From Methanohalophilus sp. RSK (GTDB lineage: Archaea; Halobacteriota; Methanosarcinia; Methanosarcinales; Methanosarcinaceae), in NCBI RefSeq assembly GCF_003722075.1, contig NZ_RDSK01000015.1, positions 1 through 64,000 on the forward strand: DNA of 64,000 bases, in the 5' to 3' direction. A program made the translations under genes and the position numbers. The notes below the pieces were generated by a model, which saw only the letters and a list, made by a program, of their open reading frames with translations, did not search any database and had not been told where the DNA came from. Within the stretch, counting starts at the first letter, position 1, and every line of letters begins with the position of its first letter. This document shows, in pieces, positions 48,233 through 58,019 of this stretch.

Positions 48233-48333
48233 AATAAGGTTTAAGTAACTTAACTCTAATTATGGATTCCGAATGGCTTTATAAAGCCCATTCATCCAAC
48301 CAACCGGCAAAGGCTAATTCTACACATCTTCCT

Positions 48334-48418
48334 GCGAGGGTTGCCCAGCCCGGTCAAAGGCGCCGGACTTAAGATCCGGTTTCGAAGGAATTCGAGGGTT
48401 CGAATCCCTCCCCTCGCA
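48334..48418 (+). tRNA. tRNA-Leu (anticodon TAA)
   Basis: Acceptor GCGAGGG pairs with CCCTCGC (48411-48417), discriminator A. The anticodon stem CCGGA/TCCGG holds the loop CTTAAGA, anticodon TAA. A long variable arm (TTCGAAGGAATTCGAGG) and GGTTCGAATCC confirm a class II leucine tRNA. A run of six T (48423-48428) follows. The sequence directly behind is foreign in composition, so this tRNA is the probable insertion point of the 48.7-55.7 kb island. No second copy of its 3' end was found in the window. Confidence 0.95.
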
Positions 48419-48707
48419 TCGCTTTTTTGGGTTATAGGTAGGTTGGAAAAATGCAACCTTCTAATAAAAGGGAGGTTCGATTTTTAAAATAATTATATGT
48501 TTCTAATTTTTAAAGATATTTTTGGAAGTGTTTTTGGGTTTAATGAAAAATGAGTGTTTACAAAAATATTCAATACTCAGATTTAATCCCTTTTATAAAA
48601 TGTTAATATACGTTGGTATTATTCCTATATTCTATTATTTACCTTTTAAACATATAACAATATTTTTATAACATTATTTCTGATTCAACAAGGGGTGGTT
48701 TCTCAAA
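48419..48707. other. Left border of the AT-rich island
   Basis: No gene. After the tRNA terminator a short hairpin GGTTG-gaaaaatg-CAACC (about 48443-48460) is seen, then very AT-rich sequence with TATA-like stretches and the strong AAGGGGTGG that serves the small gene at 48708. Confidence 0.4.
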
Positions 48708-48872
48708 ATGTCATTCATAATAGATTACATAAATAATAAAAAAACCCTAAATGATTCGGAAAAAGAAATTATTAAAAATATGTTAAATAATACTTCAATA
48801 AATGCTAGTGATAATGAATTAATTGAGTTGTTTGATAAATTAATAGAAAGGTCTCTTAGAGGGAAATTATGA
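48708..48872 (+). CDS. Small protein, first gene of the DndD-like operon (54 aa)
   Basis: 54 residues, MSFIIDYINNKKTLNDSEKE to LIELFDKLIERSLRGKL. Predicted all-helical and charged. It has a clear ribosome binding site (AAGGGGTGG, 7 nt spacing) and its stop overlaps the next start (ATGA, 48869-48872), so it is translated together with the ATPase. That arrangement is the reason to call it real despite the size. No family recognised. It may be an adaptor or regulator of the ATPase. Confidence 0.65.
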   Translation: MSFIIDYINNKKTLNDSEKEIIKNMLNNTSINASDNELIELFDKLIERSLRGKL

Positions 48873-50764
48873 GTCGCAGAATATCTACAATAGAAGTTAA
48901 TAATTTCAGGCCTTACAGAAATGTAAATATCGATTTTTCATTATCAGATAATAATCCAGACTTAAACATAATATTAGGAAATAATCGATTTGGTAAATCG
49001 AATATCTTAAAAAGTCTGCTTTGGTGCTTATATGGTGAATTGCCTAATTACGATATACTTAATGATAATATCAAAAATATTCGCCATCGTGATGAAAATG
49101 TGTTTGTCAATATTAGTCTCGAAAATTCTGCCAAAGGTTACTTGAAAAGGGATTTAACGGGCCTTACATATATTAAGAAAGACAACATATCTAAGAAATT
49201 TGTTCCTTGTGAGTATCCTAAAATAGAAGTTGAAAAGATATTGCCTAATTCTATAAAAGAATTGTTTTTATTTAAAGGAGAAGATCTAGATGATTTTTTT
49301 GGTGAACAAAATAAATATTATCTAAAAGATACAATAGAATCTTCTTCTAAAATAAGTGATTTGGTTAAAATTAAAAAATTACTTGCTGATATAGAAACTA
49401 AATATCGGAAGCAAATTGCGAAAAACAACAAAACTGACGATAAATTAAGTAAGATTGGTAAGGACATAGAAGAATTTAATAAATTAGATAAGCAGCTCGA
49501 TCAAGATATAGAGAAAAATACAAAGCTTATTGAAGCATATAAATCGAAAGTTGAAGATATCAACTCTAAATTGTTACATACTGATGAAAAACACATAAAT
49601 AGCTTGCTTCAACAGGAAAAGAGTATTCAAAATCAGCAAAAAATAATTGAAAGTGGGATTGAAGAACAAAAAAAGGAAATTGTGAAGTATTTTTTGACTG
49701 AATTATCCAATGGATTTATTAAGTCGGCTATTAATGATTTGAAGAATGAATTGTCTTCGATGGAAGATAAAGGAATGTTCCCTCCACCAGTAAATCCACA
49801 AACAATAGAGAAAATAAAAGAGAAGAAGAGATGTATTTGTGGCTGTGAATTAAACTATCAAATGGAAGAAATATTAGATGAATTATACAAAGATGTGAAT
49901 ACAAATAAAGTAGATGATTTGTATAAATTAAATCTTCAACTGTATTTTAATGAAGACAAATACATAAATAAATATAAACAATTTAAAAATTTGTTTGACC
50001 AAAAAGTTGCATTGGAAAATGAATTAACAGACACCATGAATAACTATGAGAATATTTCTCAAGAACTTATGGACATAAAAGCTAATGATGTCCCTAAATT
50101 ACAAGCTGAAAAAAGGGCATATAGGGATGAAATTGGTAAACTTGAAGCTTCTAACAAGCAGAAAGAGATGGATTTACATTCCTGTAGACAGAGAATTCTT
50201 GTTTTAGAAAACGAATTCAAAAAGCTCTCTTCAAAAACAGGATATTCAAATGTTCTTAATAGTAAACTAAAATATGCAGGTGAGTTGAAAGAGACGTGTG
50301 GTGAACTATATGATGAAATGTTAGATGATGTTCGCCAAGATCTAGTGACAAAGACGAAAGCAAATTTCAAAAATTTGTTTTGGGAAAATTACAAATATAT
50401 AGATTATGACATACAAATTGATTCACACTTCAGAATAAAGGCAATAACTCCTGAAGGTGTGGATATGATTAAATTTTTGTCAACTGGAGAAACAAAGGTC
50501 TTAGCACTTTCTTTTATTACTTCACTTTCTGATTATTATGGATTTGATTTTCCGTTAATCATTGATGCACCATTTTCAGATTTACAAAAAGAGGTTGTTA
50601 ATGATGTATTTGATGTTATTCTAGAAATATCTCATGAAAGGCAAGTAATAATATTTACAATTCCAGAAGAGAATATAATGGATAAAATAGTAAAACAATC
50701 TAATGTAGTTTATAAATTGCAGAAAGATAACGTGGACAATACGATCATGGAGAGAGTGAAATGA
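48869..50764 (+). CDS. DndD/SMC-like ATPase with CxCxC hook
   Basis: 631 residues built like SMC/Rad50 proteins and closest in style to DndD. The Walker A is GNNRFGKS (37-44, an Arg where most have Gly), followed by KSLLWCLYGELP. Two long coiled coils flank the centre with Cys322, Cys324 and Cys326 (RCICGCEL), a likely zinc hook. The C-terminal lobe has the signature FLSTGETKVLALSFI and Walker B LIIDAPFSD (Asp566). DndD works in phosphorothioate DNA systems. Here dndC/B/E are absent. It overlaps the genes on both sides by 4 nt (ATGA). Very AT-rich, foreign to the chromosome around it. Confidence 0.85.
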   Translation: MSRRISTIEVNNFRPYRNVNIDFSLSDNNPDLNIILGNNRFGKSNILKSLLWCLYGELPNYDILNDNIKNIRHRDENVFVNISLENSAKGYLKRDLTGLTYIKKDNISKKFVPCEYPKIEVEKILPNSIKELFLFKGEDLDDFFGEQNKYYLKDTIESSSKISDLVKIKKLLADIETKYRKQIAKNNKTDDKLSKIGKDIEEFNKLDKQLDQDIEKNTKLIEAYKSKVEDINSKLLHTDEKHINSLLQQEKSIQNQQKIIESGIEEQKKEIVKYFLTELSNGFIKSAINDLKNELSSMEDKGMFPPPVNPQTIEKIKEKKRCICGCELNYQMEEILDELYKDVNTNKVDDLYKLNLQLYFNEDKYINKYKQFKNLFDQKVALENELTDTMNNYENISQELMDIKANDVPKLQAEKRAYRDEIGKLEASNKQKEMDLHSCRQRILVLENEFKKLSSKTGYSNVLNSKLKYAGELKETCGELYDEMLDDVRQDLVTKTKANFKNLFWENYKYIDYDIQIDSHFRIKAITPEGVDMIKFLSTGETKVLALSFITSLSDYYGFDFPLIIDAPFSDLQKEVVNDVFDVILEISHERQVIIFTIPEENIMDKIVKQSNVVYKLQKDNVDNTIMERVK

Positions 50765-51171
50765 TACAATTAGAAGATCCTCCTCGTGACATTAAAATCG
50801 AACAATCTACAAAAGATAAATATAAATTTTTATCTGGTATATTTAATAATGTAGATATGAAAACATTATTTGTTTTTAATATGAAAATTGGTTTTTATTT
50901 TGGAATACAAAAAAAAATACAAAAAGCAAATCATATAGGTCAATTGAGTACACTAAATGAAAGTGATATCGTAGACATGATTACAATTGCGTATTCTGTG
51001 AATAAAAATATGAGTGAAATATTTGATGGACAAACAGTTGTCCATACTTGTCAAGAGTTAGCCAATGGTGGTACAGAATATTTGTATAATTTATTTACAG
51101 AAAATAATAAAGATAATTTATACATAATTGAAGATATAGCTGATGAACTCGTGGAGACTTTATCTAAATAA
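50761..51171 (+). CDS. Small protein resembling a dnd-associated family (136 aa)
   Basis: 136 residues. Starts KIEQSTKDKYKFLSGIFNNV, then VFNMKIGFYFGIQKKI, followed by DIVDMITIAYSVNKNMSEIF and TCQELANGGTEYLYNLF. The order (short N-terminal helix pair, 'F...A/K.GF..G', then a helical 'I..A......', ending 'A..YANGGI..L') resembles the small 'dnd system-associated protein 4' type, though no search was run. Its start overlaps the ATPase stop (ATGA). The 3' end overlaps the convergent helicase gene by 12 nt. Confidence 0.6.
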   Translation: MIQLEDPPRDIKIEQSTKDKYKFLSGIFNNVDMKTLFVFNMKIGFYFGIQKKIQKANHIGQLSTLNESDIVDMITIAYSVNKNMSEIFDGQTVVHTCQELANGGTEYLYNLFTENNKDNLYIIEDIADELVETLSK

Positions 51172-53271
51172 ATCTGTATATAGATACTCTAAATCGTAAT
51201 ATTTGATTATTGTTTTTAATTTTGAATCGTTAAAAACTGATAGTGGATTATTTGAATATTTTACAAATTCAAAACACCGATTTATTTCTTTTAGAGCAAT
51301 TTTTTTCTCCATATCATATAATGTAGGATTAATTTGATTGCCAAATGGTGGAATCACGATGAAGTCATAAATATTTGCCTTTTTATCTTTCTCTTGTGAT
51401 TTTCTCAAAACTCGCCCTCTTCTTTGTACATATTCTCTTGGATTCATTGAACTTGAAAGAATTATAGCATTTTTTGCTTTGGGAATATCAATTCCTTCAT
51501 CTAAAACTTTCATGGAAATAATAATATTTATATCACCTCGTTCAAAGCTATCAATAATAGAGGATCTTTCGGAAGATGGTTCATTTCCTGTTATCTGTGA
51601 GTATGTTGTTGAAATTTCATCTAATTTTTTCTTTATTTCACCAAGTTGGTATTTATCTAAGCAAAAAATAAAAGTATATTCCAAATTTTCTTCGCGGAGA
51701 AGCCTATCAATAAGTGATTTAAAATTCATCAACTTATTTTTTGATTTTTTAATAATTTTTGCACGTTTATTAAGCAATGATTGCATAATATCTTCTTTAT
51801 TGTCAGTATCCACAAAAGATGTAGTACTTATTTTTTTTGTAAGATTTGTATATTCATTAAATTCTTGGTGGTTCATTTCTACTACTTGCAGGTAATAATT
51901 ATAGGGACAAAGCACTTCATCTTTTATAGCACATCCTATATCATAAGTATATTGTTCTTTTCCAAAAAAAGAAAAAAGTAATTCATTTGTTTCTTCATCA
52001 TACATCCTTTCAGGGGTAGCACTAAGTCCCAATCTATAATTTGCCATGCTCATAAATTTTTTATCTTCAACTGTAACAATGCGACTTTTTGAACCTAATG
52101 AATGCATCTCATCCGCAATAAAAAATAAATTATCAACATTATAGCCACTGAATCTTTCTATTATTTTTTCAAGTTTATTATATGTAGATATTATAATCAA
52201 TTTGTTTAAACGATTTTTACTATAATCGTGTAATGAACTACTAAGTAAAAAATCCCAATTATATTTATCCATTAGAAGTATTTTATCAAAATATACGAAA
52301 TTATTTATTTTTTCATACCATTGATTGCATATTTCATTTGTAGGAGCTACTATAAAAGTAATCATTTTTTTCTCGATATTAATTAGCTTAATAATTGCTG
52401 CAATTCCAAGTATTGTTTTGCCTGTACCTGTTGCCATCTCGGCAATAAGTTGGAAATTATTTATCTCCCATTGATCAATTGCTTTTTTTTGGTAAGGCCT
52501 CAAAGAAATAGTTTTTTTAGCTAATTTCGAGATACAAGGACTGTAATTCTTATTAAGTGTTTCTAAGTTTATTTCAGAAACATCATTTGGCGCTTTTTCA
52601 ATTATTTTATTCTTAATAGCTAACGGTAAGGGCATAACTTCAATACTTTCTGAAAAACCATTCCATATTCGCTCAAAATGAATCAAATCTTGCTTAAAAT
52701 ATACTCTTTCATAATTATTCCAGTTTCTAAAAACTTTAAATTCTTCTATGTTGCCAATCCATCCTTTTCCGGTTTCATTAATAGAGCCACTAAACGAGAT
52801 TTTGTTGGAATCCTTATCTGACATTATACCGATTTTTTGATGAAATAAGCTTTTGAATTCAGATATAGTATTTTGTTTTGGTATTGCAATCTTTATTTCA
52901 ATCAAATTTTTGTATAGTAGCCATCCGAATATTTTATATATTTCTTTTGAAAATAAATTTTCTATTGACTCTTCATGCAAAAGAGAATTTATTTCATCAA
53001 CAACTACACTTGGATCTCTATAGATATCTTCAGCTACTATTACATCTTGTTGGTTGGACAACAACCCAGTTATCAATTTCATTTTTCCTTGGTTGCGTAT
53101 AAATTCAGCCATACCTTTAGCAGATACCGCAAGGGCCATTGAAGAAAAATATCCTGTTATTCTACTATATTCAATAGAATTGCTTAAACAAGGTATGTAA
53201 AAGTCATTTAAAACATCATCATCTTCAGATGAATAAGCTGGTTTTAGATATAGGTCTTTTAGGGAAGACAT
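51160..53271 (-). CDS. PLD-nuclease/SF2-helicase fusion (restriction-type)
   Basis: 703 residues. An N-terminal phospholipase D-type nuclease domain holds the HxK motif (FHQKIGIM, His144/Lys146) with SFSGSINETG behind it. Then follows a superfamily 2 helicase: GTGKT (282-286), DEMH (387-390), LGLSATPERM and the motif VI block QRRGRVLRKS near 617. The layout matches SauUSI-like type IV restriction enzymes and other PLD-helicase defence proteins. It is divergent from the DNA methyltransferase across a 118-bp promoter region and convergent with the DndD-like operon. Confidence 0.85.
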   Translation of the reverse strand: MSSLKDLYLKPAYSSEDDDVLNDFYIPCLSNSIEYSRITGYFSSMALAVSAKGMAEFIRNQGKMKLITGLLSNQQDVIVAEDIYRDPSVVVDEINSLLHEESIENLFSKEIYKIFGWLLYKNLIEIKIAIPKQNTISEFKSLFHQKIGIMSDKDSNKISFSGSINETGKGWIGNIEEFKVFRNWNNYERVYFKQDLIHFERIWNGFSESIEVMPLPLAIKNKIIEKAPNDVSEINLETLNKNYSPCISKLAKKTISLRPYQKKAIDQWEINNFQLIAEMATGTGKTILGIAAIIKLINIEKKMITFIVAPTNEICNQWYEKINNFVYFDKILLMDKYNWDFLLSSSLHDYSKNRLNKLIIISTYNKLEKIIERFSGYNVDNLFFIADEMHSLGSKSRIVTVEDKKFMSMANYRLGLSATPERMYDEETNELLFSFFGKEQYTYDIGCAIKDEVLCPYNYYLQVVEMNHQEFNEYTNLTKKISTTSFVDTDNKEDIMQSLLNKRAKIIKKSKNKLMNFKSLIDRLLREENLEYTFIFCLDKYQLGEIKKKLDEISTTYSQITGNEPSSERSSIIDSFERGDINIIISMKVLDEGIDIPKAKNAIILSSSMNPREYVQRRGRVLRKSQEKDKKANIYDFIVIPPFGNQINPTLYDMEKKIALKEINRCFEFVKYSNNPLSVFNDSKLKTIIKYYDLEYLYTDLFR

Positions 53272-53389
53272 ACTATATGTTATGAAGAGGATTCATTTAT
53301 AAATTTCTCTATGAAGCAAAAAATATAATATCTGTTTCTTATGAGATACTCAAAAAGATTAATATAGAGAAATTAATTAGTAATGCACA

Positions 53390-54697
53390 ATGAAAGTTAT
53401 GGAAAGCAACCTTATTAATAAAGTATATAATATAGATGCACGGTACCTTTTTAAGGTTGTGCAGGAAAAAATTATTGATGTAACAATAACTTCCCCTCCC
53501 TATTTTGATTTGAAAGATTATGGAGTAGATGAGCAAATTGGAAAAGGACAATCATATACAGATTATCTCAATGATTTAAATCGCATATTTACTCATGTAT
53601 ATAATATTACAAAAGATACAGGAAGTTTATGGGTTGTATTAGATACATTCAAAAAGAATGGAGAAGTATGCCCTTTACCATTCCATTTCGCTGAAGAGAT
53701 GAGAAAGATAGGTTGGTTGTTTCAGGATATAATAATTTGGGACAAAGTCAAAACAGTACCATGGAGCCAAAAGGGGCAGACTAAAAAAAGATATGAATAC
53801 ATTTTGTTATTCTCTAAATCAAAAGAATATAAATATCATTTGAATCGGGGGCGTGAACATCGACCTGAAAATTTGAAAGAATGGTGGATAAAATATCCTG
53901 AAAGATACAACCCTAGAGGTAAAGCACCTGAAGAAATATGGGATTTTCCAATTCCTAATCAAGGATCTTGGAGCAACGGTTGTATAAACCATTTCTGTCC
54001 TTTCCCCTTAGAAATGATTGAGAGAATGTTAGAATTGACATCAGATGAAGGGGATGTTATACTTGATCCTTTTGCAGGTTCAGGGTCTGTGTTAATACAG
54101 TCAAATTTAATGAAGAGAAATTATATAGGATTTGAATTAAATAAAAGTTATGTAAATAAATTAAACCAAAATATGAATATCATAATGGATCAAATGTACA
54201 ATAATTTAAATGGTAACAATAAAGAGGTGAATAATAAATTTAATTTTTATGAGACAATCATTAAGTTGAGAATTCTAAAGTATGCTAGGATAATGGCAAA
54301 AAAAATTGATATAAATTTTCCTAGGATGGTGGATTGTATATATGTGACTCAATCAACAAAAAAACCTATTGAAAACAATATTTATTCTCATGCTAACTAT
54401 ACAATTTATCTCTCCAGTAATAAAAAACAAACTTCTATAGATGATCTCAAAAGTTATGTGCACGATATCACAAATAGGAAACCATTATCGAAATTTGGAA
54501 TTAGTCCATCTATAAAATTCTCATTTGAAAGACCAAGCACTCAATTAAACAAAAAAGTAAAAATATATGAATATACAAAACTTAATACACATATGTATAA
54601 AAAAATGTATGATTATCAAGATAGTGACCATCTTTTAATTTTAAGCCCTATAAAAATGTATATTAATGAAAAAAAATATATTGATTCTATCCGATAA
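53390..54697 (+). CDS. DNA methyltransferase, beta-class SPPY type
   Basis: 435 residues. The catalytic motif TSPPYFDL (34-41) comes first and the SAM motif DPFAGSGS (226-233) later, the beta-class order. SPPY is typical of N4-cytosine (less often N6-adenine) methylases. Residues 250-435 form an extra lysine-rich domain of unknown type, possibly for target choice. ATG 53390 or 53399 may be the start. The gene stands opposite the nuclease-helicase, as modification genes of restriction systems often do. Confidence 0.85.
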   Translation: MKVMESNLINKVYNIDARYLFKVVQEKIIDVTITSPPYFDLKDYGVDEQIGKGQSYTDYLNDLNRIFTHVYNITKDTGSLWVVLDTFKKNGEVCPLPFHFAEEMRKIGWLFQDIIIWDKVKTVPWSQKGQTKKRYEYILLFSKSKEYKYHLNRGREHRPENLKEWWIKYPERYNPRGKAPEEIWDFPIPNQGSWSNGCINHFCPFPLEMIERMLELTSDEGDVILDPFAGSGSVLIQSNLMKRNYIGFELNKSYVNKLNQNMNIIMDQMYNNLNGNNKEVNNKFNFYETIIKLRILKYARIMAKKIDINFPRMVDCIYVTQSTKKPIENNIYSHANYTIYLSSNKKQTSIDDLKSYVHDITNRKPLSKFGISPSIKFSFERPSTQLNKKVKIYEYTKLNTHMYKKMYDYQDSDHLLILSPIKMYINEKKYIDSIR

Positions 54698-54771
54698 AAT
54701 AATACTATGAATGTTAATTATAGTTAGTAATTAGGTTTATCGAATTGCTTAGTAATTGAATTTCCTTCGTT

Positions 54772-55194
54772 TCATTCATCAGTGTCCACCTTTCTAACAA
54801 GTTGCTCCCATTGATTGAGCCTCTCCTGTACATGTTTATTCAAACTAAACGGTTTATCAACTCTGGCTCTACGCTTCAAATCATGTAGAGTACCCTTTGA
54901 GAACCCCAATTTTTTCCACTCAACATAGGAAATATCAAGAATCAACTGCCTGATTTCCATGTTGTCCTGTCTTTCAATTTCATAGACAGGAGACATGAAA
55001 TCAACGGTTTTGCGTTTACCAACAAGGTATTGAGCCAGTTCTCTTGTCTTCAGGAGCTATATAGCACTCCATGTATGCTGTTTATTCCTGTATTGAGCAC
55101 GTTTATTCAACCATCGATTAACTTCCTCAGTAACCTTTCTGGCCCCTGTAAGTTTAAGCCTTAGCGCATAGGTTTCTGTCCGTATCAACAGAAC
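54772..55194 (-). pseudogene. cas1: Cas1 C-terminal remnant with an in-frame TAG
   Basis: The frame reads RTETYALRLKLTGARKVTEE, VNRWLNKRAQYRNKQHTWSA, I, TAG (55057-55059), then KTRELAQYLVGKRKTVDF and YVEWKKLGFSKGTLHDLKR, with PFSLNKHVQERLNQWE near the end. The last blocks resemble the C-terminal tail of archaeal type I Cas1. The N-terminal half with most catalytic residues is missing and no other cas gene or CRISPR array is in the window. At its upstream edge the frame runs into a viral head-gene scrap. Confidence 0.65.
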
Positions 55195-55354
55195 GACTGA
55201 CAGGCACAGGCAACAGGTCACTGCGACAGTTGTGATGCAGTGGTGGTCTCATTCTGCTTGCTTCAACCGAATCTGCATCAAAAACCGTGCCATGCAGGGC
55301 CCTGCACTGTGGTGAGGTACGGTCATCGATCTCTGCAAAGAATTCGACCTGTAC
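55154..55354 (-). pseudogene. Scrap of a viral head-morphogenesis protein (SPP1 gp7/Mu F-like)
   Basis: The frame reads VQVEFFAEIDDRTSPQCRAL, HGTVFDADSVEA and RPPLHHNCRSDLLPVP before drifting to a stop. 'DDRTSP.CRALHG.VF' with 'PPLH.NCRS' is the metal-binding end of SPP1 gp7-type minor head proteins (family knowledge). It is cut at both sides and overlaps the Cas1 remnant in another frame. A trace of a lost provirus. Confidence 0.7.
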
Positions 55355-55372
55355 TCACGCATGAAAACCACC

Positions 55373-55672
55373 TCATGCATGCGCATAAACCACTTCTGAA
55401 AAAATCCTGCTTTTCAATTCATCCCTTACAGCACGTTTCGAGATGATATCTACCTTTGACCCGAACTCGTCTTCAAGAAAAATTCCAAGAGCTGCGAGAT
55501 CAAAAATATCCGCCCCTTTCTCAAACTCAACAAGGAAGTCAATATCGCTGCCGGTTTTGTATTCATTCCTCACCACCGACCCAAAAAGGCCTATTTCCTT
55601 AACCTTATAGTTCTTTTTCAATTCCGCAAGCATCTCATCCAGTCTTCCCAGAATAATATCCTTTTTGATCAT
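55373..55672 (-). CDS. MntA-like minimal nucleotidyltransferase
   Basis: 99 residues from ATG 55672. The active-site block is GLFGSVVRNEYKTGSDIDFL (GSxxR...SDID) with a third acidic strand at SKVDIIS. MntA proteins AMPylate and silence HepT RNase toxins. No HepT-like gene is next to it on either side, so it is either an orphan antitoxin or the toxin was lost. It sits between the scrap region and ordinary chromosomal genes. Confidence 0.85.
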   Translation of the reverse strand: MIKKDIILGRLDEMLAELKKNYKVKEIGLFGSVVRNEYKTGSDIDFLVEFEKGADIFDLAALGIFLEDEFGSKVDIISKRAVRDELKSRIFSEVVYAHA

Positions 55673-55932
55673 ATTAATTCCCTTATGAGATCTCTGATAC
55701 ACATTTTGGAGGGTCTTTTTATATTATTGCTTTGGTTGGCGTTGTCTGGCCACTCCCATGAATTCATTGATTTCAGAATGAACCTAGAGATCCTCATATG
55801 AATCATCAATGAAACAGAAATTGAATTTTTAGTGCAAGCCAACACATGGAATACACCCCCTTTTATAAGATTATGCTTCAATAAAAAAATAGAGGATAGT
55901 TACTCTACAAAATCCAAAATAGGAGAATTAAT

Positions 55933-56740: not shown

Positions 56741-57883
56741 TCAATCCAGACCGGCATCTGCTTTGAAAGCCTTTAGTTTGAGACTCATAACAGGGTAGCC
56801 TGAGTACTGATTCTCACCAATCTCTTTGTCTTGATCCATTATCCGGACCTGGAATCCAGCATCTTTTATTATTCCCAGGTAGTCATCTTTGAGCAATGCA
56901 CCCCCTATACAGGCACATATAAGATCTTCATCATTCCTTTGCTCGGGGGTCAGGTCATTCAGAAGAACAATATCTGAAACATACATCCTCCCATCATTTT
57001 TGAGAACACGGTATGCTTCCCTGAATACTTTGGATTTGTTAGGTGCAAGATTGATTACACAGTTGCTTATAATGACATCAATAGAACCCGTATCAACAGG
57101 TAAAAACTCGATATCCCCCTGCCTGAACTCGACATTATCGAATTCATACTTTTCAGCATTCTTTCTTGCTTTTGCAACCATATCTTCTGTCATATCCACA
57201 CCAATGACTTTCCCGGTCTTGCCCACCTTCCTTGCAGCGATAAAAGTATCAAATCCTCCTCCGGAGCCAAGGTCAAGAACGATATCGCCTTCTTTTACCT
57301 CACCGAATGCCGTGGGATTTCCACATCCAAGCCCCAGATTCGCTGCAGAGAATGATTGTGTGTCTTCAGATGAATAGCCAATGGATGTTGATATCTCTTC
57401 CTTTGTGAGGTCCCCGCAACATTCACAACCCTGTACAACATCCAATGCAATTTTTCCGTATGTATCCTTTACAACTTTTTTCGTGGAATCTGCATCTGCT
57501 GTATTGTCAGAGCAACATCCACAACCCTGTACAACATCCAATGCAATTTTTCCGTATGTATCCTTTACAACTTTTTTCGTGGAATCCGCATCTGCTGTAT
57601 TGTCAGAGCAACATGAATCAAATTTTTCAATTCCGCAATTTTCAAGTTTATCTTTCATATTATCATCCATTATGCTGTAAATTACGTATCTACCCTCTTT
57701 TTCATACTTCAGGAGACCCGCTTCACAAAGTATCCTGAGATGCCGGGATACAGTGGTTTGATCCTTGCCCGTAATTGCCGCAAAATCACATGCACAGTGA
57801 TCATGTTTTAACAGGCATCCTATTATTGCAAGACGCGTTTGGTCCCCCAATGCTTTGAAGAATTTAGCTTTTTCGTGAAGCAT
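56741..57883 (-). CDS. arsM: ArsR-ArsM fusion: arsenite-responsive repressor joined to As(III) methyltransferase
   Basis: About 380 residues from ATG 57883. The N-terminal winged helix ([38 protein letters not shown]) is ArsR. A Cys-rich linker with [16 protein letters not shown] and GCECCGD follows, then the ArsM methyltransferase ([47 protein letters not shown]). ArsM methylates arsenite to volatile or less toxic forms. The linker includes a 32-codon unit present twice (57424-57615). An ATG 22 codons upstream lies beyond the operator and was not used. Similar fusions are known in methanogens. Confidence 0.88.
57424..57615 (-). repeat. 96-bp tandem duplication inside arsM
   Basis: Two adjacent 96-bp copies (57424-57519 and 57520-57615) differ by one silent change inside the repeat (T/C at the Asp-Ser region near 57500/57596). 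The unit is exactly 32 codons, so the frame is kept and one extra CC/GC(E/G)CC arsenic-binding block is added. Confidence 0.9.
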
Positions 57884-57890
57884 TCGTTGT

Positions 57891-57914
57891 ATATATGTGC
57901 ATTTATGCATATAT
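57891..57914. promoter_or_regulatory. Probable ArsR operator/TATA region of arsM
   Basis: ATATATGTGCATttATGCATATAT is an inverted repeat with one mismatch, 8-30 nt upstream of the start codon, overlapping TATA-like sequence. An autoregulating ArsR domain would bind here and block transcription in the absence of arsenite. Confidence 0.5.
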
Positions 57915-58019
57915 TTCTTTTGCAAGCAGTTTTTGGAAAAACGAGGCACAAAGAGGAAAGCAAATACAATAAATACTTTATGATTTTTTTATGGCTTGGT
58001 AGTTATTATTTAATTTATT

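Follow-up and report, generated by a model that had tools for sequence, protein, structure and literature searches.

Can the effector module of a phosphorothioation-dependent antiviral defence be served by a DNA methyltransferase instead? The question is raised by five genes at positions 48708-54697 of the window, by which we mean the whole 64,000-nucleotide stretch analysed here (positions 1-64,000 of contig NZ_RDSK01000015.1 of Methanohalophilus sp. RSK, a methane-producing archaeon). The module, PbeABCD, was named by Xiong et al. in 2019 and protects ~10^4-fold against virus SNJ1, provided that the phosphorothioate (PT) mark is present, and leaves viral DNA undegraded (PMC6459918); it was later equated with the CxC-ABC-ATPase/DndE system, for which C5 and circularly permuted N4-cytosine (N4C) methylases were reported and DNA cleavage was argued (PMC10853773). 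Both papers reported PT-free, methyltransferase-linked members and proposed methylation as a substitute mark (PMC6459918; PMC10853773), the 2019 survey finding no dndCD with 320 of 553 pbeAC pairs, 155 of which lay near methyltransferases (PMC6459918). The pairing is thus already predicted by published surveys; these left open whether PbeABCD works with methylation instead of phosphorothioation, and we found no report of a test. On its motifs, family assignments and a predicted fold, the locus is identified as a CxC-ABC-ATPase/DndE (PbeABCD) system in its methyltransferase-linked form. The explanation that we favour, with a probability of roughly 0.6, is that the five make up a single defence unit of horizontal origin, in which a PbeABCD effector module is paired with a DNA methyltransferase as marking enzyme instead of the DndCDEA phosphorothioation enzymes. 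An earlier note, made from this sequence alone, had likewise proposed methylation as a mark of self in place of phosphorothioation, which we judge the most likely reading; its view that the combination has no name must be given up, since the module is already known as PbeABCD (PMC6459918) and as the CxC-ABC-ATPase/DndE system (PMC10853773). The features are as follows.

48333-48420, plus strand: tRNA-Leu(TAA), the left boundary of the island.
48460-54785, no strand: AT-rich island, 27.4% GC, missing at the same site in 7/7 congeners compared.
48708-48872, plus strand: pbeB, small protein of 54 amino acids (aa), assigned by position and its ATGA overlap with pbeC, not by sequence similarity.
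48869-50764, plus strand: pbeC, 631-aa CxC-type ABC ATPase, coiled coil with CICGC hook (PADLOC PbeC, 1.6e-59; motifs).
50761-51171, plus strand: pbeD, 136 aa, cognate of DndE, predicted to form two ribbon-helix-helix units plus a C-terminal helix (homologues, predicted fold).
51160-53271, minus strand: pbeA, 703-aa fusion of an HKD/PLD nuclease domain and an SF2 helicase (PADLOC PbeA, 9e-193; TIGR04095).
53390-54697, plus strand: DNA amino-methyltransferase, 435 aa, circularly permuted motif order, ~170-aa C-terminal extension (PF01555, 3.6e-48).

All five open reading frames are intact, and their strongly AT-rich position behind tRNA-Leu is as the earlier note described it. The trio pbeBCD is joined by consecutive start/stop overlaps (ATGA), pbeA converges on it and runs into its end, and the methyltransferase gene is divergent from pbeA. 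The GC fraction of the island is 0.274, against 0.421 in its left flank and 0.386 in its right flank. Collinearity with all seven congeners breaks at 48436-48469, 16-49 bp past the tRNA gene, and similarity resumes at about 54785 (in a decayed piece of cas1) or later. Type I restriction-modification genes stand behind this tRNA-Leu in four congeners (G035, G031, G034 and G032), which makes the site a hotspot for restriction-type systems. A repeat of the tRNA 3' end that could mark a right attachment site was sought and none was found.

Both large proteins of the module bear the marks of their families. The ATPase that the earlier note had likened to DndD has Walker A (GNNRFGKS, 37), the CxCxC hook (CICGC, 322), LSTGE (537) and DAPF (566) and scores far below the cut-off of the NCBIfam equivalog model for DndD; we read it as PbeC, a sister of DndD among the CxC-type ABC ATPases. 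The nuclease-helicase fusion recognised in that note is also borne out: PbeA has HxK..D (144) and the helicase motifs GTGKT, DEMH, SAT and QRRGR, and its H144, K146 and D152 as well as the core helicase motifs are invariant across seven aligned PbeA proteins. Against TIGR04095, the NCBIfam model of a restriction domain of phosphorothioation systems, it scores 336 bits, under the 600-bit cut-off. The comparison with SauUSI made at the time stands for the domain architecture and fails for close kinship: a stand-alone enzyme of SauUSI type, one PLD-helicase that by itself restricts modified DNA, was rejected, as PbeA is part of a module of several genes both here and at 83 other loci, and the SauUSI structure (7clg), a remote relative, matches best over the helicase part. 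Also rejected were DndFGH, none of whose genes is among the five, and DISARM or BREX, for which PADLOC gave weak matches to DrmD and BrxH through the shared helicase only.

The 136-aa protein of the window matched no family, TIGR04062 included, and a profile search with its sequence against solved structures returned nothing useful. Its homologues stand directly after pbeC in other loci, where 44 of 55 aligned proteins match TIGR04062 (dnd_assoc_4). An AlphaFold2 model (pLDDT 93) has strand-helix-helix twice plus a C-terminal helix, and the top 15 Foldseek hits of this model were all solved DndE structures (probability up to 0.97, TM-score ~0.66 by target, E-values 0.15-0.74). In the published description, DndE consists of a pair of ribbon-helix-helix domains, to which the clade that goes with CxC ATPases adds a long C-terminal helix (PMC10853773); the model agrees with this description, and a DndE cognate is therefore taken to be present, the 136-aa protein being, on its predicted fold, PbeD. 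As for the 54-aa protein, no sequence match was found; a small reading frame lies between pbeA and pbeC, just before the latter, in 78 of 81 other loci. Three features of a CxC-ABC-ATPase/DndE system in the wide sense (CxC-hook ATPase, adjacent DndE cognate, HKD-SF2 fusion) are found together in the window.

Phosphorothioation genes are a different matter. No DndC exceeded its cut-off anywhere in the 99.6%-complete genome, nor was a good DndD-like match found apart from the window's own pbeC, so that the pair that defines a strict PT system, dndC with a dndD of its own, is missing from the genome. Because DndC is absent, this is not a strict DndCDEA-PbeABCD system. The claim that dndB, dndC and dndE are all lacking consequently survives for the phosphorothioation genes and lapses for dndE, given the predicted DndE fold of PbeD.

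The candidate for the marking role is the fifth gene. In its product SPPY (35) precedes DPFAGSG (226), the circularly permuted order, and while SPPY is usual for N4-cytosine enzymes, the sequence would be compatible with either N4C or N6-adenine specificity. The C-terminal extension is common to a small family only, whose few other members are found in genome G171 (49% identity), an Akkermansia phage (43%) and two haloarchaeal plasmids (31-33%). Among 72,556 plasmids, the methyltransferase was found at 80% length or more in two, and both are among the 21 plasmids with PbeA at 80% length or more, a co-occurrence with p = 8e-8 if the two were independent. On both plasmids pbeABCD and the methyltransferase form one gene run within 11 kb; the genes that the earlier note had grouped thus do co-occur in other loci. 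Across 393 genomes of the phylum, PbeA is present in three of the four with this methyltransferase and in 39 overall, some of these 39 matching only part of PbeA (p = 0.003; with the window left out, p = 0.026). In G402 the two genes are directly linked, 3.5 kb apart, and G171, the source of the nearest relative, also has a full-length PbeA. A single-sequence query of viral contigs found no relative of the methyltransferase. The phage enzyme (L171:4001-5269), which includes the C-terminal extension and lies near repressor and integrase genes, possibly serves as self-protection against such systems. Haloarchaeal relatives at L174:14859-17756 and L175:5481-8408 are SPPY methyltransferases fused to a GHKL-type ATPase domain, and a separate GHKL ATPase adjoins pbeD in L036.

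Partner enzymes were then counted in 86 other PbeA loci (80 from the PbeA genome scan and six from a family search) with profiles for DndC, three methyltransferase groups and radical SAM, all seeded from the same loci. DndC was found in 33, a methyltransferase in 20, a B12/radical-SAM enzyme in 14 and no partner in 19, and no locus had two, in a sample that is biased to close PbeA relatives, has several loci cut by contig ends and would miss methyltransferases outside the three groups. The chance of zero overlap between DndC and methyltransferase is 1.1e-5. Among same-family relatives, L037, L038 and L039 combine pbeABCD with a C5 cytosine methyltransferase and a Vsr-like nuclease.

The radical-SAM loci (L036, L040, L071, L074, L076, L077, L078, L079, L081, L093, L118, L119, L121 and L143), which come from bacteria and archaea, never had DndC or a detected methyltransferase as well. 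The enzyme adjoins pbeABCD, on the same strand in 13 of the 14, often with a ~230-aa protein between its gene and pbeA. Its cluster motif RGCxxxCxFC is invariant in ten aligned proteins, matches to B12-binding domains are weak, and NCBIfam matches are likewise weak and scattered across many B12/radical-SAM families. We found no mention of radical-SAM enzymes as Pbe partners in PMC6459918, PMC10853773 or wider literature searches; the class seems undescribed, and is a more novel lead than the window system. It may represent a third marking enzyme. We tentatively suggest, as a possibility that falls somewhat short of an even chance, that PbeABCD is a modification-agnostic effector with interchangeable markers, namely phosphorothioation by DndC, base methylation as here, and a B12-binding radical-SAM enzyme that maybe writes a different, possibly new, DNA mark.

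For the window itself, the likely function is methylation-gated exclusion of invading DNA. We infer that the methyltransferase is active and that its mark gates the module, in the following order. The methyltransferase would mark a short motif on host DNA, which a PbeC-PbeD complex, combining an ABC ATPase with a ribbon-helix-helix DNA binder, would scan for. PbeA, in which an HKD nuclease domain is joined to a translocating helicase, would be licensed by unmarked motifs on invading DNA, and PbeB would serve as a subunit for coupling or regulation. Nicking, or else a block, would then keep the invader from replicating.

Several points weigh against this proposal. With pbeA inverted and the methyltransferase a separate transcription unit, coordinated expression is not evident, and position is the sole ground on which PbeB is assigned. 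The inversion is peculiar to the window: all 83 other loci that have pbeC carry it on the same strand as pbeA, pbeA coming first in 82, and pbeA is inverted relative to pbeBCD in none. Repeats that could account for it were sought, none being convincing; it may have placed pbeA under separate control. The two plasmids may share their arrangement by descent, which would weaken p = 8e-8, and partners are not always exclusive, as 105 of 553 published loci have both DndCD and a methyltransferase (PMC6459918). In G171, whose methyltransferase is the nearest relative and stands beside transposase-like frames, the full-length PbeA is on another contig; the two genes are on different contigs in G487 as well, and the Akkermansia phage and genome G587 have the same methyltransferase family without pbe. 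The phage, G587 and the transposase-like frames in G171, with the separate transcription unit, suit an account in which the methyltransferase is a passenger, a mobile or orphan modification gene, and the pbe genes, as a solitary module that needs PT, have no activity here, as Xiong et al. considered possible for solitary modules (PMC6459918). The intact state of all the reading frames makes that account improbable, as does the finding of this methyltransferase family linked with pbe on two haloarchaeal plasmids and in a further genome.

If PbeABCD instead cut unmethylated sites constitutively, the locus would be a classical restriction-modification system whose methyltransferase is essential for host survival. 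The intact HKD motif of PbeA, the case made for cleavage by Rakesh et al. (PMC10853773) and the position in a restriction-modification hotspot are consistent with this, but when the mark was lost in the PbeABCD system that has been tested, there was no toxicity and defence failed, and viral DNA was left intact, unlike in ordinary restriction-modification (PMC6459918), so that we consider it unlikely, if the strongest of the competing explanations. A suicide mechanism seems the least probable: PbeC-PbeD would sense infection, PbeB, acting as an inhibitor, would be released and PbeA would cut host DNA and kill the cell, with methylation only setting a threshold. Rakesh et al. put forward such a mechanism for CxC systems (PMC10853773), and it fits a small variable protein in 78 of 81 gaps; deletion of pbeB in the tested system, however, abolished defence and released no toxic activity (PMC6459918). 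Methylation gating of the PbeABCD effector remains the reading that we prefer. If it is true, the effector is decoupled from the chemistry by which DNA is marked; with only five genes in a genome that lacks DndC, the compact island offers a clean test case, and with non-overlapping partner classes, radical-SAM included, the idea that one effector serves several marks becomes directly testable.

Other genes lie at and beyond the right edge of the island. A decayed C-terminal cas1 remnant (54772-55221) is 90% identical to a Cas1 frame in congener G032 (L068), and is followed by an MntA-like nucleotidyltransferase antitoxin (55373-55702; PADLOC PDC-S09, 1.5e-27) that is also present in congener G035. 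The protein encoded at 56741-57949 joins an ArsR-type regulator domain to a methyltransferase domain, likely ArsM-like, and contains an internal tandem duplication; the counterpart in a congener is shorter (362 aa in L064).

Set beside known systems, the locus resembles DndCDEA-PbeABCD of Haloterrigena jeotgali A29 (PMC6459918) in PbeA, PbeC and PbeD by family or fold and in PbeB by position, with 54 against 66 aa for PbeB and 136 against 152 aa for PbeD; it differs in lacking DndCDEA, in the methyltransferase beside the module and in the inverted pbeA. With the CxC-ABC-ATPase/DndE systems that include DNA methylases (Rakesh et al. 2024, PMC10853773) it has in common the CxC-hook ATPase, DndE cognate and HKD+SF2 protein; the small protein, placed by position, and the circularly permuted amino-methyltransferase, N4C or N6A, are probable further correspondences. 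No separate gene of MTaX1 type is recognised in the window and pbeA is, again, inverted. The plasmids of Halococcus dombrowskii and Halobaculum rubrum (NZ_CP095007, NZ_CP082285) share pbeABCD and the SPPY methyltransferase family with its C-terminal extension (31-33%); unlike the window, they have a pair of methyltransferase paralogues, of which one carries a fused GHKL-type ATPase domain, and two further genes. Type I and III restriction enzymes and SauUSI (7clg) have a similar SF2 helicase core, and SauUSI is also a nuclease-helicase fusion, but the window locus is not HsdRMS; it is, as far as motifs and the predicted fold indicate, a multi-gene module with an ABC ATPase and a DndE cognate.

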